Shown in pieces: positions 56,507 through 64,000 of a stretch of DNA of 64,000 nt (position 1 is its first letter; every line of letters begins with the position of its first letter). The DNA is from Maribacter algicola (GTDB taxonomy: Bacteria; Bacteroidota; Bacteroidia; Flavobacteriales; Flavobacteriaceae): contig NZ_QUSX01000001.1 in the NCBI RefSeq assembly GCF_003933245.1, positions 1,922,001 through 1,986,000 on the forward strand, given 5' to 3'. The notes below the pieces were generated by a model, which was given only the letters and a program-made list of their open reading frames with translations, did not search any database and was not told where the DNA came from. A program made the translations under genes and the position numbers.

Positions 56507-57183
56507 AAAGTGTTTTGGGTTATGACTTACATATAACCTACACCTTTTATCAAAAAATCCAAATTAAGGATCAAAAACCTTCGGTTTTTAATGAAATCAG
56601 TCAATATTTTGCTGAGAATCATTCAATATAGGCAGATAATGAATGATTATACTCGAATCCAATAGATACATAAAATGGGAACTCCAGGCAGCCCCAGTTC
56701 ATTTCTAAGTGCATTTGGGTAATAGGACTACCTTTTTATCTAATAAATTTTCTGTCCTGTACTTTGAATTACATTTATTGAAAAACTTCATAATGACATT
56801 TTATTTGTTAAAATATTTAAGATGTAATATTTATATTGCACAAATAGTATCAATTTAATACATTGGATTTGTTAGGTGTGTAAAATACAATTATTGAATG
56901 GGAGTGATGCCTAATTTAAAAGATATATCCTAAGATTCTAATTACCTATCCATTGGAAAACCCAAGCAAAATACTTCTGGAGAAATTGTTTTTGGAACAT
57001 TATAAACAATGGGGTTTATGAACCGTTTGCCTTTTTTGGAATATTGATATGTTCTACCGCAAAAATAGCCTTTTAACAACGAAATCTTCAACAAGCGGTT
57101 TCTAGAATGGGACCTGATAATTTGGATACCAAAGTAAGGTGGGACGTGGATTAACAAGTATACAAGTTTAATAATAGATAAGA
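56507..57183. other. Intergenic region (677 bp) between sigma gene and sugar-acid cassette
   Basis: No convincing gene. It is AT-rich. A short hairpin AAAAACC/GGTTTTT sits at 56573-56589, and a GAACT/AGTTC imperfect hairpin at 56679-56700. Several near matches to TAnnTTTG lie around 56700-56880, none exact with a good -33. An 83-codon minus-strand frame (56942-57193) overlaps the cassette start and has unnatural composition. The region probably holds the divergent promoters of the sigma/S21 unit and the cassette. Confidence 0.6.
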
Positions 57184-58683
57184 ATGAAATCAATTCTAAA
57201 ACAGATCATAGAGAAGAACAAACTGGAAGAGAAGCATCTTTTTCAATCTAGAAAGTCGGAACTTGAAAACCCTAAGACCCCGGACGAAAGAAGAAACTTC
57301 CTAAAGAAGACGGCTTTGGGTGGAATAGCGATGACCGGAATGATCGGACTTGGGATAGAGGATACAATAGCCCAAACGACTTCTAAGGTTAGCCGTATGT
57401 CCGCACCTTCAGACCTCAAGATAACTGACATGCGATATGCCTTGACCAATGTCATGGGTGGTACCGCTATTATAAAAATAGAAACCAATCAAGGTATCTA
57501 CGGTCTGGGTGAGGTTAGGGATGCGGCTGATGTTCGCTATGCTCTTTTTCTTAAGAGCAGAATCCTTGGGGAAAACCCTTGTAACGTCGAGAAGATATTT
57601 AAGAGTATCAAGCAATTTGGGGGTCCCGCAAGACAAGCGGGCGGTGTCTGTGCCGTAGAAATGGCCCTCTGGGATATTTGCGGAAAGGCCTACAACGTTC
57701 CCGCTTGGCAACTGCTTGGTGGAAGATATAGGGACAAGGTTAGGCTATATGCGGATACACCCGAAGCATCATCCCCCGAAGAACAAAAAAGATTGATAGA
57801 CTTTAGGGTAAATGAGCAAGGATATACTTGGTTGAAAATGGATGTTTCTATAGGGGAGCTCAGGGGAAAACCTGGAACCGTTGTGAATGGTAAGTTTTGG
57901 GAAAATGATAAGGGTGTTTTGGCTCAATGGGGAGATCGAAGAAATATGATGTCCTACGGAAATACGATGCATCCTTTCACGCAAATCCAAATCACTGAAA
58001 AAGGTTTGGAAGAATTGCAACAGGTAGTTGAGGATGTTCGTAATATGGTGGGCTATGAGATTCCTATTTCCACGGACCATTACGGACACTTTGATTTGAA
58101 CAACGGTATTCGATTGGCAAAGGCATTGGACAAATACAGATTGGCCTGGTTTGAGGATATGGTACCATGGCAGTACAATGAACAATGGCGCACTATTACG
58201 GATGCTATAGAGACGCCAACAACGACTGGTGAGGATATTTATCTTTTAAAGGATTTCCTTCCCTTGATCCATAACAGGGCCGTGGATATTATACATCCGG
58301 ATTTGGCCTCTTCTGGCGGGCTTTTGGAAACTAAACGAATTGCCGACTATGCCGAGGAATATGGTATAGCCATGGCCATGCATCAGGCTGGTACGCCGGT
58401 TTCATTTATGGCCAATGTGCATTGCGCTGCCGCCACTCAAAACTTTTTGGCATTGGAACACCACTCGGTTGACGTTCCCTGGTGGGAAAGTCTGGTAAAA
58501 ACGGTGGGAGGTTTTAAAATGATAGATAAAGGTTTTGCCACCGTACCACTCACTGCACCAGGTTTGGGTATCGAGTTGGATGAAGAAGTGGTTAAGGCCC
58601 ATTTGCATCCATCTGATAAGACATTCTTTAAATCCACAGAGGAATGGAATGAACTTAGATCACATGACAGAACATTTAGTTAA
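57184..58683 (+). CDS. Tat-exported enolase-superfamily sugar-acid dehydratase 1
   Basis: A 499-residue mandelate racemase/galactonate-dehydratase-type enzyme that should dehydrate an aldonate to a 2-keto-3-deoxy acid. The twin-Arg signal is DERRNFLKKTALGGIAMTG, unusually preceded by a 35-residue charged segment. The N-terminal cap (MRYALTNVMGGTAIIKIETNQG, core TAIIKIETNQGIYGLGE) and the barrel follow. The metal acids are Asp in STDHYGHFD, Glu in AWFED and Glu in TTGEDIYL, and a base His lies in MAMHQAGTP. The exact sugar acid cannot be read. First gene of the cassette. Confidence 0.87.
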   Translation: MKSILKQIIEKNKLEEKHLFQSRKSELENPKTPDERRNFLKKTALGGIAMTGMIGLGIEDTIAQTTSKVSRMSAPSDLKITDMRYALTNVMGGTAIIKIETNQGIYGLGEVRDAADVRYALFLKSRILGENPCNVEKIFKSIKQFGGPARQAGGVCAVEMALWDICGKAYNVPAWQLLGGRYRDKVRLYADTPEASSPEEQKRLIDFRVNEQGYTWLKMDVSIGELRGKPGTVVNGKFWENDKGVLAQWGDRRNMMSYGNTMHPFTQIQITEKGLEELQQVVEDVRNMVGYEIPISTDHYGHFDLNNGIRLAKALDKYRLAWFEDMVPWQYNEQWRTITDAIETPTTTGEDIYLLKDFLPLIHNRAVDIIHPDLASSGGLLETKRIADYAEEYGIAMAMHQAGTPVSFMANVHCAAATQNFLALEHHSVDVPWWESLVKTVGGFKMIDKGFATVPLTAPGLGIELDEEVVKAHLHPSDKTFFKSTEEWNELRSHDRTFS

Positions 58684-58762
58684 GGTTTTAAAATTGTAAT
58701 TAATAGAACTGAGAAAGAATGTATGAACATTGAAATTTAGAATTTGAGTTAGTTTAAGTTAG

Positions 58763-58799
58763 GCTGGAGAACACTTCCTTTTTTGGAAGGGTTCTCAGC
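58763..58799 (+). other. Stem-loop between dehydratase 1 and RraA-like 1
   Basis: GAGAAC pairs with GTTCTC and CTTCC with GGAAG around a T-run loop, with one mismatch between. No T-run follows. A processing or stability hairpin is more likely than a full terminator, since the cassette continues. Confidence 0.55.
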
Positions 58800-58863
58800 T
58801 TGCTTACAATGGTATCTAAATTTTGTAATACTATAAATCAAGAGAACTTTAATAATTGTAAAA

Positions 58864-59802
58864 ATGAAAAATTTCAAAATTGTAATGGTCTTATGTTGTT
58901 TAACATACCATTTCCAAGGCGATGCTCAAGGGGTTACAGGTTCTGCGGAATATATCAAGGAGCTGACTTCCCAATGGAAAGGGGAGCGCTTTGATGATGG
59001 AAGACCCAAGGTGTCCGATGCCCTATTAAGTAGAATGAAGAATATACAGATAGAAGAGGCCTGGGGCTTTTTAAGAAGTAGGGGCTACAACAACCAATAT
59101 GAAGGGGAATGGGAAATAATCCATCCAGAAGGTGTGATGACAGGAAGAGTGGTCACTGCCCAGTATATGCCGTTAAGACCGGACTATCAAAAATTAATAA
59201 AAATAAAGGGAGCCGAGGAAAAAAGAGATACCATTGGAGGTAGTAATTCTTGGCCTATTCAACAATTGGTGCCAGGAGACGTTTACGTTGCGGATGGTTA
59301 CGGTAGAATTATTGATGGGACCCTTATAGGTTCCAATTTGGGGAATGCCATTTATGCCAATTCACAGAACGGGGTCATTTTTGATGGCGGCGTGAGGGAC
59401 GTTGCGGGCCTTTTGGATATTGAAGGTTTCAATGGATGGCATAAAGGAGCGGACCCATCGTATCTTCAAGAGGAAATGTTAACGTCCATTAATGTGCCCA
59501 TCCGAATTGGAAGGGCAACGGTATTGCCTGGCGATGTTGTATTGGCCAATAGGCATGGAACCATATTTATTCCTTCCTATTTGGCTTCGGAATTGGTGAT
59601 TTCCTCTGAAATTGTAGGCTTACGGGATGTTTTCGGATTTCAAAGATTACGGGAAAAGAAATATACAGCGGGTCAAATCGATACCCGTTGGACCGATGAG
59701 ATCAATGCTGATTTTGAAAACTGGTTAAAATCATATCCCGACAGCAAATTACCTATGACCAGAAAGGAGCTTAACGATTATATGGCTTCCAGAAAAAAAT
59801 AA
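58864..59802 (+). CDS. Exported RraA/HMG-aldolase-like protein 1
   Basis: A 312-residue member of the RraA-like family, which includes class II pyruvate aldolases and oxaloacetate decarboxylases. Unlike cytoplasmic RraA it has a Sec signal peptide (about 1-21, ending GDAQG) and a family-specific N-terminal part with RFDDGRPKVSDALLSRM. The active-site segment is VIFDGGVRDVAGLLD, with the metal Asp and catalytic Arg-Asp of the family, then GDVVLANRHGTIFIP. The acid often found four residues after Arg in active aldolases is Gly here, so activity is uncertain. Next to dehydratase 1. Confidence 0.82.
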   Translation: MKNFKIVMVLCCLTYHFQGDAQGVTGSAEYIKELTSQWKGERFDDGRPKVSDALLSRMKNIQIEEAWGFLRSRGYNNQYEGEWEIIHPEGVMTGRVVTAQYMPLRPDYQKLIKIKGAEEKRDTIGGSNSWPIQQLVPGDVYVADGYGRIIDGTLIGSNLGNAIYANSQNGVIFDGGVRDVAGLLDIEGFNGWHKGADPSYLQEEMLTSINVPIRIGRATVLPGDVVLANRHGTIFIPSYLASELVISSEIVGLRDVFGFQRLREKKYTAGQIDTRWTDEINADFENWLKSYPDSKLPMTRKELNDYMASRKK

Positions 59803-59820
59803 ATACCAAACCATTAAATA

Positions 59821-60291
59821 ATGAGGAATATGATATCAATGAAGTTGAGATTACATTTCAAGGTTGCCCGTGGACTAGTATTTATTACACTTTTGGGCCT
59901 TACTTCTTTAACATCGGCGCAGGGCCCAAATAAGAATGTTTCGGAAATTGAAAAAACAGTTGCGGAATTATATTCGGCCATGGTGGACAAGGATAAAGAA
60001 GTTCTGGAGCAATTGACCTCGGAAAAATTGACATATGGCCATTCCAGCGGCTCTTTGGAGAACAAATCTCAATATGTAAACGGGGTACTCAATGGTGCCT
60101 TTCAGTTTTCTTCCATTACCCCAAAGGACCAGACCGTTTCGGTAACCGGTAAAGTAGGCGTGGTTCGGCATATTTTTGAAGCCCAAGGAACCAATAATGG
60201 TAAACCAGCCGATGTAAGGATTGGCTGTCTATTGATATTTAAAAAAGAAGGCCGATGGAAGCTATTGGCAAGACAGGCTTATAAATTATAA
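59821..60291 (+). CDS. Exported NTF2-like (DUF4440) protein
   Basis: A 156-residue protein with a Sec signal peptide (about residues 1-33, ending LTSAQG; ATG4 and ATG7 are alternative starts) and a cone-shaped NTF2-like domain (VAELYSAMVDKDKEVLEQLTSEKLTYGHSSG and ending RWKLLARQAYKL). Such domains bind small molecules or act as isomerases or lyases. It may assist the sugar-acid enzymes, but no specific role can be read. It lies 18 bp after RraA-like 1 and 11 bp before the transporter. Confidence 0.8.
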   Translation: MRNMISMKLRLHFKVARGLVFITLLGLTSLTSAQGPNKNVSEIEKTVAELYSAMVDKDKEVLEQLTSEKLTYGHSSGSLENKSQYVNGVLNGAFQFSSITPKDQTVSVTGKVGVVRHIFEAQGTNNGKPADVRIGCLLIFKKEGRWKLLARQAYKL

Positions 60292-60302
60292 CACATATTA
60301 CC

Positions 60303-61409
60303 TTGGGAAAAATTACTATTTATTCAATTTCTATAGGATTGGCAGCAGCACTTTTTCTTGTTGTCATAGGTATGATAATTACTGGGAACCTAGACAAGGC
60401 CGGCCCATTTATTTTAGGCTTCTTTGCGTTGTTGGCTTTCGGCTTCAATGGTTACGTAAAACTGAGTGGGTTAATTTTTACAACCATGATTTTTGCTGGC
60501 GTTACGGCCGCGCTCTATTATCCATCCTATTTTACCAATATTGGGAATTTCAAATTGACCGTTCTTATAATTCCACTTATACAGATTATCATGTTCGGTA
60601 TGGGAACCACCATGAGTCTTAAGGATTTCGCAGCTGTTTTTCAATCGCCAAAAGGAGTGGTCATAGGAGTATCTGCCCAATTGCTCGTAATGCCATTAAT
60701 TGGCTACTTTTTGGCGCAGATCAGTAATTTTCCACCTGAAATTGCCGCGGGTATCGTTCTTATAGGCTGCTCTCCCAGTGGTGTGGCTTCCAATGTAATG
60801 GCTTTTTTGGCCAATGCGAATGTAGCTTTATCCATTACCATCACCTCCATAGCCACCCTCTTGGCGCCTTTTCTCACCCCACTTATGATGAAAGTATTTG
60901 CCGGCGAGTTCATAGAAATCGATGTGCTTTCCATGATGTGGAGCATAATTAAAATGATTATTCTACCCATTGGAGCGGGACTAATTGTAAATAAGATTTT
61001 GGGTAAAAACGCAAATTTTATAGGAAAAGCCATGCCGTTGGTATCCATGTTGGCCATAGGTCTGATTATCACCATTATTACTGCTGCAGGAAGGGACAGT
61101 TTATTGGAAATAGGGGGTATACTTATGTTATTGGTACTAATACACAATATTTTCGGATACTTCCTGGGGTATTGGTATGCCAAACTATTTAAGATGTCTG
61201 AAGAGGATGCAAGGACAATAGCAATTGAAGTAGGAATGCAAAACGGAGGTTTAGCTTCGGGTATCGCGAACAGTCTAGGTAAAATTGCCACCATGGGGCT
61301 GGCCCCGGCAGTTTTTGGGCCGTTAATGAACGTAACTGGATCTATATTGGCTTCTTATTGGCACGGAAAACCTACGGTAAAGCAACCCAACACAATAAAG
61401 GTCAATTAG
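60303..61409 (+). CDS. BASS-family (bile acid:sodium symporter-like) transporter
   Basis: A 368-residue inner-membrane protein with about ten hydrophobic segments. Family landmarks are MFGMGTTMSLKDFA, LIGCSPSGVASNVMAFLANANVALS and EVGMQNGGLASGIA. BASS carriers import bile acids, pyruvate and other organic anions with Na+. No ATG suits the start; TTG at 60303 is chosen, since the first ATG would remove the first membrane helix. Inside this cassette the cargo is plausibly a 2-oxo acid such as pyruvate (inference). Confidence 0.85.
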   Translation: MGKITIYSISIGLAAALFLVVIGMIITGNLDKAGPFILGFFALLAFGFNGYVKLSGLIFTTMIFAGVTAALYYPSYFTNIGNFKLTVLIIPLIQIIMFGMGTTMSLKDFAAVFQSPKGVVIGVSAQLLVMPLIGYFLAQISNFPPEIAAGIVLIGCSPSGVASNVMAFLANANVALSITITSIATLLAPFLTPLMMKVFAGEFIEIDVLSMMWSIIKMIILPIGAGLIVNKILGKNANFIGKAMPLVSMLAIGLIITIITAAGRDSLLEIGGILMLLVLIHNIFGYFLGYWYAKLFKMSEEDARTIAIEVGMQNGGLASGIANSLGKIATMGLAPAVFGPLMNVTGSILASYWHGKPTVKQPNTIKVN

Positions 61410-61444
61410 CAAAGAAAAACGATGTAAAAAAATCAAAAGAACCA

Positions 61445-62725
61445 ATGAAAAATTCAAGAAGATCTTTTATCTCCAAATCCCTAATGGCCGGTGCCGGATT
61501 GGGTATGGTATCAAGTACGTATGGTAACGAGTATGTAACGGCGATTGATAAAAATCCAAAACTTTCCTCACCCTCTGACTTAAAGATTACCGATGTAAAA
61601 TGCGGTTTTATTCGTCGGGGTAGTGGACTGTTTGTAAAAATATATACCAACCAAGGAATTTATGGATGCGGAGAGGGTGTTGATGCCGTACCCGGAACCT
61701 ACCATTTGGTCAAAAGAATGGGACACTTTTTAAGGGACCAAAGTCCGTTCAATGTCCATAAAATATTTGAAGATATTCGCCGCGCAGGTCATTTTGGAGG
61801 TGCGCAGTCTGGAACTTATGTAGCTGTGCTTTCCGCTATAGAGACCGCTTTATGGGACTTGGCCGGCAAAGCATTGGATTTACCGGTTTATAAGTTGCTG
61901 GGTGGTAAATTCAGGGATAAGGTAAGAGTGTATTGTGATACCGCGCTTTATCGAGTTCGTTTTCCTTCTCCGGATGATTTTGCCACTGCGGCCAGAGATG
62001 CCATTAGTAATTGGGGCTTTAACGCATTGAAATTCGATTTGGATTATGCGAGCGATCCTGATAAATATGATCGCTATAATTGGACCGCCAGTCCGGGTGA
62101 GATTATACGAATGTATGATCAACTTGCTGCGGTTAGGGAAGCGGTAGGACCAAAAATAGATTTATGTGTGGATATGCATGGACGATATGATCATGTGACC
62201 GCCCAGACCATTGCCAAAAAAGTAGAAGATTTAAATCTAACTTGGTTGGAAGAGCCTATTCCAGCAGAAAATTTTGACGCATTCAAAACACTTGCGGAGG
62301 AAACAAGCACACCCATTTCAGCGGGTGAAAACGTATACTTAGGTCACGGATTTAAACAATTGCTGGACAATGGAGTGGACATCATCATGCCAGACCTTCA
62401 AAAATGTGGGGGCCTAGGGGAAGGACAGCGCATTGCCAACCTCGCCAATTTATACTATGTACCCTTCTCACCACATATGGTGGCTTCCTTCTTGGGTGCC
62501 ATGGCATGTGCCCATGTGTGTGCCTCGGTTCCCAATTTCCATTTAATGGAATGGCAATCCTACTTCCACACAGACCCTATGTTCAAGGAAATAGTGACCT
62601 ATGATGAAGCGGATTGGGTGAAGGACAGTTTTGTGAAGGTTTCCGATAAACCAGGTATTGGAGTGGATATCAATGAGGACGCCATGCGAAAGTATGCCCC
62701 CGAAGGCATTCCATTTTTTGAATAA
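61445..62725 (+). CDS. Tat-exported enolase-superfamily sugar-acid dehydratase 2
   Basis: Paralogue of dehydratase 1, about 426 residues. The frame is open to 61358, inside the transporter gene, but MKNSRRSFISKSLMAGAG at 61445 starts with the twin-Arg signal and is the right start. The metal acids are Asp in LCVDMHGRYD, Glu in WLEEPIP and Glu in AGENVYLG, with a base His in PFSPHMVAS, as in galactonate-type dehydratases. The pair DMHGR/SPHMV differs from dehydratase 1, so the two probably act on different sugar acids. It precedes RraA-like 2 by 27 bp. Confidence 0.88.
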   Translation: MKNSRRSFISKSLMAGAGLGMVSSTYGNEYVTAIDKNPKLSSPSDLKITDVKCGFIRRGSGLFVKIYTNQGIYGCGEGVDAVPGTYHLVKRMGHFLRDQSPFNVHKIFEDIRRAGHFGGAQSGTYVAVLSAIETALWDLAGKALDLPVYKLLGGKFRDKVRVYCDTALYRVRFPSPDDFATAARDAISNWGFNALKFDLDYASDPDKYDRYNWTASPGEIIRMYDQLAAVREAVGPKIDLCVDMHGRYDHVTAQTIAKKVEDLNLTWLEEPIPAENFDAFKTLAEETSTPISAGENVYLGHGFKQLLDNGVDIIMPDLQKCGGLGEGQRIANLANLYYVPFSPHMVASFLGAMACAHVCASVPNFHLMEWQSYFHTDPMFKEIVTYDEADWVKDSFVKVSDKPGIGVDINEDAMRKYAPEGIPFFE

Positions 62726-62752
62726 TCAATAACACATAAAATAGAGACGATT

Positions 62753-63688
62753 ATGTTACAAAGAAAGTATATGCTGTTAGTGGTGCTGATCGGTTTGGCG
62801 ACCCAGATGATGGGGCAACAGATTAGTAAGGAAGAACTTATTTTTTTAACTCCACAGTGGACAGGAGAACGCTTTGAGGATGGAAGACCCAAAGTGTCCG
62901 ATGCCTTATTGGAAAGGATAAAGTCTGTTAGTGTGGAGGAGGCCTGGGCCGTAATGAAAAACGAAGGCTATCGGTATCAAATTGCCGAAGACTGGAAACT
63001 GATCAATCCCGATAGTGTTTTGGTAGGTCGCGCGGTCACCGCAACGTTCATGCCCGGCCGCCCAGATGTTTGGAAAGCCATTGATGACCGGGGAAAAGCA
63101 CAGGGAAAACGTGGTCAAAACACCTGGCCCGTGGATATATTGGTAAATGGCGATGTGTACGTTGCAGACCAATTTGGTGCGGATAAGGACGGACCTACCA
63201 TTGGGGACAACGTAGGCAATGCAATTTATGCAAAGACCGGAAATGGAATTGTTTATGATGGAGCTTTAAGGGATGTTGAGGGACTCATGGAAATAGGAGG
63301 TTTTACTTCCTATTACACCAGTTATGACGCTTCCCACCATAATCCACCGGGTGATTTGAACACGATGCTCATAGGAATCAATCAACCTACGAGAATCCGT
63401 ACTGTAACCGTAATGCCCGGTGATGTAGTATTGGGAAAAATGGGTGTGGTAACTTTCATACCACCGCATTTGGCCGAGAAGGTGGCGACGACCTCAGAAG
63501 TTGTTCGTTTGCGCGATATGTTCGGACATCAACGTATAAAGGAGGGTGTTTATACTGCGGGCCAAATCGATACTCGTTGGGCCGATGAAATTGAAAAGGA
63601 TTTCAGCAAATGGCTCAATGAACATATTGATGAATTACCTGTTTCCAGGGAACAAATCCAAGAAATATTGAAGAAGAGAACTTGGTAA
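62753..63688 (+). CDS. Exported RraA/HMG-aldolase-like protein 2
   Basis: A 311-residue paralogue of RraA-like 1, with Sec signal peptide (about 1-21, ending MMGQ), the shared RFEDGRPKVSDALLERI, the active-site segment IVYDGALRDVEGLME (metal Asp, Arg-Asp) and GDVVLGKMGVVTFIP, ending TAGQIDTRWADEIEKDF. The Arg-Asp pair is intact. As in copy 1, the acid two residues later is not at the expected place (a Glu is one earlier, in DVEG). Role as aldolase or decarboxylase on the dehydratase product is inference. Confidence 0.82.
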   Translation: MLQRKYMLLVVLIGLATQMMGQQISKEELIFLTPQWTGERFEDGRPKVSDALLERIKSVSVEEAWAVMKNEGYRYQIAEDWKLINPDSVLVGRAVTATFMPGRPDVWKAIDDRGKAQGKRGQNTWPVDILVNGDVYVADQFGADKDGPTIGDNVGNAIYAKTGNGIVYDGALRDVEGLMEIGGFTSYYTSYDASHHNPPGDLNTMLIGINQPTRIRTVTVMPGDVVLGKMGVVTFIPPHLAEKVATTSEVVRLRDMFGHQRIKEGVYTAGQIDTRWADEIEKDFSKWLNEHIDELPVSREQIQEILKKRTW

Positions 63689-63720
63689 GATCTAGAACAA
63701 TCTAATAAGATTAAGTTGCC

Positions 63721-63746
63721 ATGGCGAATATTCTATATTTCGCCAT
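63721..63746 (+). other. Stem-loop after RraA-like 2
   Basis: ATGGCGAA and TTCGCCAT form an 8-bp perfect stem with a 10-nt loop and no T-run. It separates RraA-like 2 from the PQQ dehydrogenase gene. Confidence 0.6.
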
Positions 63747-63772
63747 AGTATGCTTTACTTGCATTATACACC

Positions 63773-64000
63773 ATGTCAACTAAACAATTATTGAATAAAT
63801 TATCTGTACTAATTCTCGTACCATCCTTTTTAAGCGTCATGGTAGGATGTCAAACGAAGACAGAGAAAACAACCCGGCACACTACCTGGTCCCAATATGG
63901 TGGAAGCCCTGACCAATCCAAATACTTTGAATCACCAATCATTACCAAAGCCAATGTGGGTGAATTGGAACTGCTTTGGAGCTATCCTTCTGGAGATGAC
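63773..64000 (+). CDS. PQQ-dependent dehydrogenase lipoprotein, 3' end outside window
   Basis: The first 76 codons of a quinoprotein dehydrogenase. The start MSTKQLLNKLSVLILVPS leads to the lipobox VMVGC (Cys near residue 25), then TWSQYGGSPDQSKYF and ANVGELELLWSYPSGDD, the typical first strands of the PQQ propeller in membrane-bound glucose-type dehydrogenases. It would oxidise aldoses to lactones or aldonates on the outside of the inner membrane, feeding the dehydratases upstream. The rest of the gene lies beyond base 64000. Confidence 0.8.
   Translation, partial: MSTKQLLNKLSVLILVPSFLSVMVGCQTKTEKTTRHTTWSQYGGSPDQSKYFESPIITKANVGELELLWSYPSGDD

Follow-up and report, generated by a model that had tools for sequence, protein, structure and literature searches.

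A predicted periplasmic sugar-acid cassette in Maribacter algicola, probably a deletion-reduced copy of a longer Bacteroidota operon

The cassette and its genes

The window, that is, the whole stretch of DNA analysed here, comprises 64,000 nucleotides of Maribacter algicola (NCBI RefSeq assembly GCF_003933245.1, contig NZ_QUSX01000001.1, positions 1,922,001 to 1,986,000 of the forward strand), and the system in question is a gene cassette that begins at position 57184 and reaches the end of the window. It encodes two enolase-superfamily proteins (D1 and D2), two RraA-like proteins (RraA1 and RraA2), an NTF2-like protein and a carrier of the bile acid:sodium symporter (BASS) family. On balance, the locus is probably best explained as a copy of a Bacteroidota sugar-acid utilisation operon that has been reduced by deletion, and most of its enzymes are predicted to be exported. 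The breakdown of sugar acids by dehydration is normally taught as a cytoplasmic process; the novelty is the compartment, that is to say, an exported version of a known kind of pathway. The features are as follows.

56792..57018, + strand: scar, the start of a sigma-factor-like gene (labelled by eye) with DNA upstream of it; 69% DNA identity over 235 columns to L048:1066-1297
57083..57154, + strand: scar, 3′ end of a SusD gene; 86% DNA identity over 72 bp to the SusD end in Allomuricauda aurea, L049:8191-8262
57184..58683, + strand: D1, enolase superfamily (MR_MLE), D-x-aromatic type; PF13378 1.1e-45, PF02746 2.9e-11; twin-arginine translocation (Tat)-like motif RRNFLKK after a 35-residue extension
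58864..59802, + strand: RraA1, PF03737; Sec-like N-terminus; Ser at the Asp-102 position
59821..60291, + strand: NTF2-like/DUF4440 protein, PF14534 4.2e-15; Sec-like hydrophobic N-terminus
60303..61409, + strand: BASS carrier, PF01758 1.3e-38; nearest curated model PanS
61445..62725, + strand: D2, galactonate-dehydratase-like MR_MLE protein with DxH; PF13378 2.4e-55; Tat-like motif SRRSFISK
62753..63688, + strand: RraA2, PF03737 5.4e-14; Sec-like N-terminus; Asp at the Asp-102 position by alignment
63773..64000 in the window, open reading frame (ORF) running to 64231, + strand: N-terminal remnant (152 aa) of a pyrroloquinoline quinone (PQQ) dehydrogenase lipoprotein gene

The six complete ORFs at 57184-63688 all lie on the + strand, are separated by gaps of 180, 18, 11, 35 and 27 bp and are presumably co-transcribed. 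The gene set and order on one strand with short gaps, as described in the initial annotation, are thus borne out by the ORF list and Pfam, with gaps of 11-180 bp. The start of D2 is taken as the ATG at 61445, and the family searches of D2 began one codon earlier, at 61442; its longest ORF starts at a TTG at 61358 and would overlap the BASS gene by 52 bp. RraA1 is 95% identical to a protein of Maribacter aurantiacus. The NTF2-like protein gave no match against PHROGs.

Predicted export

Export was called by a pattern script of our own and not by SignalP or TatP, a protein being counted as positive if it carries a twin arginine with a hydrophobic stretch (Tat-like) or a hydrophobic N-terminus. 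By this script, every one of the 93 complete and distinct D proteins has a Tat-like signal; the exported RraA proteins are positive in 111 of 115 cases (109 with a hydrophobic N-terminus and 2 Tat-like), and three of the four misses have evidently over-long ORF starts. The NTF2 proteins are positive in 17 of 19 cases and the SDR proteins in 3 of 13, and among the cytosolic controls no signal was called at all (KdgK 0/10, Eda 0/6, UxuA 0/5, FGGY 0/6 and two alcohol dehydrogenase clusters 0/6 and 0/10). In the search with the Tat signal model TIGR01409, D1 scored 16.9 against a cut-off of 16.7 and D2 was not listed. TatC was found in all 14 genomes with an exported RraA. The motifs proposed in the initial annotation, i.e., twin-arginine signals on both D proteins and Sec signals on both RraA-like proteins and the NTF2-like protein, were found by this script, and the pattern points to export of the dehydratases instead of the cytoplasmic location that had been named as counter-evidence. 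Elsewhere in the window genome (C2:74-77 kb, L222), a D-like gene lies beside Eda and KdgK, and none of the three carries a signal; this ordinary cytoplasmic set serves for comparison.

Conserved clustering across Bacteroidota

In a family sample of 149 genomes, with exported-type RraA called at E <= 1e-20 and close BASS at E <= 1e-60, the exported-type RraA occurs in 14 genomes and is absent from the one genome of the same genus. All 14 also contain a close BASS, compared with 4 of the 135 others (Fisher p 1.9e-16). The BASS gene is not always beside RraA, since it stands apart in G104 and for one of the two copies in G108. Six of the seven D2 orthologues above 500 bits adjoin RraA, the exception being G110:C12:630445.

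A scan of named genomes gave at least 595 pattern matches and at least 555 confirmed stretches, of which the best 80 (L048-L127) were analysed. By title all are Bacteroidota, and they cover Flavobacteriaceae, Cyclobacteriaceae, Dyadobacter/Spirosoma, Chitinophagaceae, Bacteroidales, Lewinella and Saprospiraceae; as they were picked by RraA similarity, they are not independent samples, and the protein clusters were set by BLAST thresholds of our own. Within 8 kb of RraA, these 80 loci contain D (69), BASS (43), SusD (34), SusC (33), FecR (23), NTF2 (15), sigma factor (14), KdgK (9), Eda (6) and PQQ (4, with ORFs of 646-813 aa). D is the immediate same-strand neighbour of 90 of 103 RraA genes in the named loci and the window, six of the 13 exceptions lying at contig ends, and the median gap between D/RraA neighbours is 47 bp (115 pairs, some organisms counted twice). 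SusD directly adjoins D or RraA in 27 of the 80 loci, and one SusD of the relatives was family-checked (PF12771, PF12741). The initial annotation had named the lack of conserved clustering as evidence against it, and the neighbourhood survey finds RraA beside D in most cases. Taken together, the export and clustering of the cassette proteins across Bacteroidota are strongly supported by these predictions.

The longer operon and the traces of probable deletion

The longer operon of Maribacter flavus (L048) and its counterpart in Allomuricauda aurea (L049) have the order sigma-FecR-SusC-SusD-D1-RraA1-NTF2-BASS-D2-RraA2-PQQ-cupin (sigma and cupin labelled by eye), with PQQ proteins of 771 and 775 aa. 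Directly upstream of D1 in the window stand the two scars listed above. The sigma scar gives a 32-aa tblastn match of 47%, with a stop in the frame; tblastn with the L048 SusC and SusD gave no match in the window or in the 19 kb next to it. At the other end, what is left of PQQ corresponds roughly to residues 16-172 of the Maribacter flavus protein (771 aa), and the remainder is gone; the remnant covers profile positions 1-109 of 595 and contains no complete beta-propeller domain. The DNA match stops about 415 bp into the ORF, followed by 165-190 bp of unmatched sequence and then by the region of a fumarylacetoacetate hydrolase (FAH)-family gene. The simplest reading would be two deletions, which removed sigma-FecR-SusC-SusD on one side and most of PQQ plus the cupin gene on the other. 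As the PQQ gene is a remnant whose ORF ends beyond the window edge, the cassette is here without a complete periplasmic sugar dehydrogenase, and both the lipoprotein and the oxidation step that had been assigned to it lose their support in this genome.

The FAH-family gene is the next one past the window (C1:1986362-1987567; 401 aa; no recognised signal) and also follows the row in L048. Its best PDB matches are 9kkt (3.5e-108) and then 2-keto-3-deoxy-D-arabinonate dehydratase (7.9e-22). It was considered as a constant part of the operon and rejected, this FAH type being found in 3 of 101 loci and once on the far side and on the other strand. Between PQQ and FAH in Maribacter flavus lies a gene for an exported cupin-like protein (by eye; L048:17201-18412), which is absent from the window locus.

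The scars and the truncated PQQ gene could also mean that the cassette of this genome is a decaying relic without function. This is improbable, because six ORFs are complete and dN/dS against Maribacter flavus is low for D1 (0.033), RraA1 (0.061), D2 (0.008) and RraA2 (0.017), although these values span both lineages and are compatible with a recent loss of function. The NTF2 gene gave 0.22; no ratio is given for BASS or the PQQ remnant, whose dS values had reached saturation. The FAH protein shows 84.5% identity over 393 residues.

Predicted reactions of the D and RraA proteins

D1 and D2 both have the N- and C-terminal MR_MLE domains by Pfam, and the best NCBIfam model of both is galactonate dehydratase, NF010624 (D2 237.6 and D1 185.7, below the cut-off of 311 bits). 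The D/E/E positions, which we take to be metal ligands, and the presumed His-Asp dyad, both labelled after galactonate dehydratase, show no variation among the 94 aligned D proteins. Of all the residues checked, only the beta-3 position varies: it is His in D2 and Tyr in D1, and across the 94 proteins it is 29 His, 44 Tyr, 17 Phe and 4 Trp. The histidine of the beta-3 DxH is a feature of galactonate dehydratase.

The RraA-like domain is found in RraA1 and RraA2 by Pfam, and a model of RraA1 has the RraA fold. R178 and D179, which correspond to Arg-123 and Asp-124 of the 4-hydroxy-4-methyl-2-oxoglutarate/4-carboxy-4-hydroxy-2-oxoadipate (HMG/CHA) aldolase, are invariant in alignments of 21 and 52 sequences. 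The Asp-102 position is Asp in RraA2 and Ser in RraA1, and among 124 RraA proteins 103 have Asp, 20 have Ser and one was unread. The motif D/G-X20-R-D-X2-E/D was dropped as a test, its E/D position being Gly-182 in the exported RraA and Thr in the alignment of 3noj. NF009399/PRK12764, a 501-aa model named "fumarylacetoacetate hydrolase family protein", is matched in its C-terminal half by the exported RraA proteins, so that FAH-RraA fusions may exist elsewhere.

In the literature searched, FlDet of Flavobacterium is the sole member of the RraA family from a related bacterium for which a reaction on a sugar acid has been measured. It dehydrates and decarboxylates 2-keto-3-deoxyglucarate (KDGR), and 2-keto-3-deoxygluconate (KDG), its 6-phosphate (KDPG), 4-deoxy-5-hexoseulose uronate (DEHU) and 4-hydroxy-2-oxoglutarate are not substrates (PMC8563752). 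The RraA protein encoded at L220:12040-12759, near a KdgK gene, is FlDet-like: it lacks a signal, and its N-terminus is similar to the one published for FlDet. It has Ser at the Asp-102 position, as RraA1 does, and is 28% identical to its best exported RraA match.

Proposed route and the rival explanations

In the relatives' longer operon, the SusC/SusD pair would bring a sugar acid into the periplasm, or else a sugar that the exported PQQ dehydrogenase would oxidise to the acid. The Tat-exported D enzymes would then remove water in the periplasm to give a 2-keto-3-deoxy acid, on which the exported RraA-like partner would act via a metal-bound enolate; a retro-aldol split is the single most likely RraA step, although its probability stays somewhat short of even. 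The 2-oxo acid so formed would cross the inner membrane through the BASS carrier, and cytosolic enzymes would finish the route, i.e., KdgK and Eda in several relatives and perhaps the FAH-family protein in the window genome.

The carrier is a clear BASS member (PF01758, 133 bits against a cut-off of 24.3), and its best NCBIfam model is the ketopantoate/pantoate transporter PanS (NF047939, 234.9 bits, below the cut-off of 400); ketopantoate is also a 4-hydroxy-2-oxo acid. Of 45 named loci that contain BASS, six have it directly adjoining KdgK on the same strand (L051, L054, L057, L071, L083 and L094). Six BASS loci with no RraA beside the carrier gene were fetched, and among them KdgK-Eda is contiguous with BASS in G102 (L216), Eda-KdgK is divergent from it in G086 (L215), and an Eda gene is near it in G104 (L218). 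Since KdgK and Eda act on the uncut 2-keto-3-deoxy acid, the pyruvate cargo that had been proposed is less likely than stated and now appears rather unlikely, and import of the uncut acid is, by a modest preference, the probable one.

Both the neighbourhood of KdgK and Eda and the FlDet data lead us to favour import of the 2-keto-3-deoxy acid by BASS, with RraA acting on the same compound in the periplasm. One rival scheme is less likely than not: the 2-keto-3-deoxy acid formed by periplasmic D would enter intact through BASS for degradation by KdgK/Eda or FAH, and RraA would be not a lyase but an enzyme that prepares the substrate by enol-keto, ring-open or epimer interconversion. It agrees with the BASS adjacencies above, including those without RraA, with PanS as the nearest carrier model, and with the presence of KdgK in 14/14 exported-RraA genomes compared with 67/135 others (p 1.2e-4). 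We know of no RraA-family member with such a preparing activity, which counts against it, as does the stricter pairing of RraA with D than of BASS with D. The alternative in line with the initial annotation is doubtful; here both dehydration and retro-aldol cleavage would be completed in the periplasm, with pyruvate entering through BASS and the aldehyde by a separate route. The enolate-stabilising Arg and the metal Asp of RraA are kept, and yet RraA1 carries Ser in place of Asp-102, and small products might be lost by diffusion. In addition, some BASS genes adjoin KdgK-Eda even without RraA, and FlDet is inactive on KDG or KDPG (PMC8563752). Quite improbable is a chemistry like that of FlDet, with D acting on aldarates and RraA dehydrating and decarboxylating the product to alpha-ketoglutarate semialdehyde. 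The KDGR activity of FlDet itself, the Ser shared by the L220 protein and RraA1, and the aldarate-type genes beside RraA-D pairs in L085 agree with it; the exported RraA are longer and distant, most of them have Asp, and aldarate-type genes were identified in one locus, the other loci not having been searched for them. Genome-wide presence of Eda and KdgK was tried as a discriminator between periplasmic cleavage and import and gave no decision, both occurring in all 14 exported-RraA genomes.

Several points weigh against the proposed route as a whole. The dehydration reaction of D1 is less sure because the beta-3 His of galactonate dehydratase is Tyr in it. No BASS was found within 8 kb in 37 of the 80 named loci, some of which are short contigs; neither KdgK nor Eda is present in three of the six fetched BASS loci without RraA (L214, L217 and L219), and the FAH type of the window locus is rare, as given above. 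KdgK is common (81/149 genomes) and serves uronate pathways, so that its adjacency to BASS is only suggestive. Finally, cutting of the product by RraA would make the cytosolic KdgK, Eda or FAH needless for the route, and import of the uncut acid by BASS would leave RraA in need of another task.

Sister clusters and possible substrates

In seven sister loci (L036-L041 and L122), the genes lined up with RraA encode an amidohydrolase/deacetylase, a RidA-like protein and, where the other cassettes have a dehydratase, a DgaE-like lyase; BASS is present in six, and a GSDH-cytochrome c protein is often also found there. These clusters look like an export-side breakdown of amino-sugar acids, judged from gene content. 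In L039 the deacetylase reached 451.6 against a cut-off of 371 (NF006689), and the DgaE-like pyridoxal phosphate-dependent lyase 198.7 against 385.3 (TIGR01437, below the cut-off); DgaE-like proteins are Tat-like in only 6 of 11 cases. In the D-glucosaminate pathway, the aldolase DgaF acts right after the lyase (PMC9529869), and for this reason the rows of RraA with a DgaE-like lyase were counted in favour of cleavage. A broader conjecture, also doubtful, is that a complete non-phosphorylating sugar-acid pathway runs through C-C cleavage in the Bacteroidota periplasm, and that two unrelated routes, enolase-superfamily dehydration and DgaE-type/RidA ammonia elimination, converge on exported RraA aldolases and the BASS 2-oxo acid carrier. 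Both kinds of cluster were seen in one locus, L098, where deacetylase, RidA-like and DgaE-like genes adjoin the RraA-D-BASS set.

The neighbours in the tested loci point to sugar acids as the substrate class without singling out one substrate. In L090, L096, L103 and L106, RraA has a gluconokinase-like FGGY kinase as its direct neighbour (family-checked in L106 only: TIGR01314, 455.8 against 648.55). An L-arabinonate-dehydratase-like protein is also encoded in L090 (855.9 against 882), and L085 has GarL-like, GntP-like and GudD-like genes, all below the cut-off, and a tartronate-semialdehyde reductase (346.5 against 340.75). Three tandem Tat-like proteins lie between SusD and D1 in L057 (4796-8289), of which the first, the one tested, matches UxuA/mannonate dehydratase models below the cut-off.

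Comparison with known systems

No precedent for exported enolase-superfamily dehydratases with RraA was found in the literature searched, which consisted of open-licence papers, mostly the starts of abstracts, and is weak evidence of absence. If true, an exported version that extends from Flavobacteriaceae to Cyclobacteriaceae, Chitinophagaceae and Bacteroidales would alter the models of sugar-acid uptake in Bacteroidota. In addition, a function would be gained for the exported RraA proteins, which go under names such as "RraA family protein", "regulator of RNase E activity RraA" or "dimethylmenaquinone methyltransferase".

The nearest known system is the cytoplasmic De Ley-Doudoroff or semi-phosphorylative pathway (galactonate dehydratase, KDG(al) kinase and KDP(G/Gal) aldolase), with which the cassette shares the dehydratase superfamily and, in several relatives' loci, KdgK and Eda; it differs in the Tat-like signals of the D proteins, and the signal-free L222 set is present in the same genome. 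The RraA family (HMG/CHA aldolase 3noj, RraAS2 5x15 and FlDet) has the same fold, invariant Arg and metal Asp, whereas the exported members carry a signal peptide, are extended at both the N- and the C-terminus to about 312 residues and, in RraA1, have Ser at Asp-102. The carrier is similar to KdgT/PanS-type 2-oxo acid uptake in that its gene adjoins KDG kinase in several loci, and it differs from PanS in scoring well below that model's cut-off. The relatives resemble a polysaccharide utilisation locus in having SusC-SusD with FecR/sigma upstream; in contrast, the L048/L049 operons have no recognised glycoside hydrolase or lyase (by eye), and the window copy has no SusC/SusD. Lastly, the sister clusters are similar to the DgaE/DgaF pathway of D-glucosaminate in their DgaE-family lyase (below the cut-off) and amidohydrolase/deacetylase (above it), and they differ in the export signals of several components and in having RraA in the place of the aldolase.

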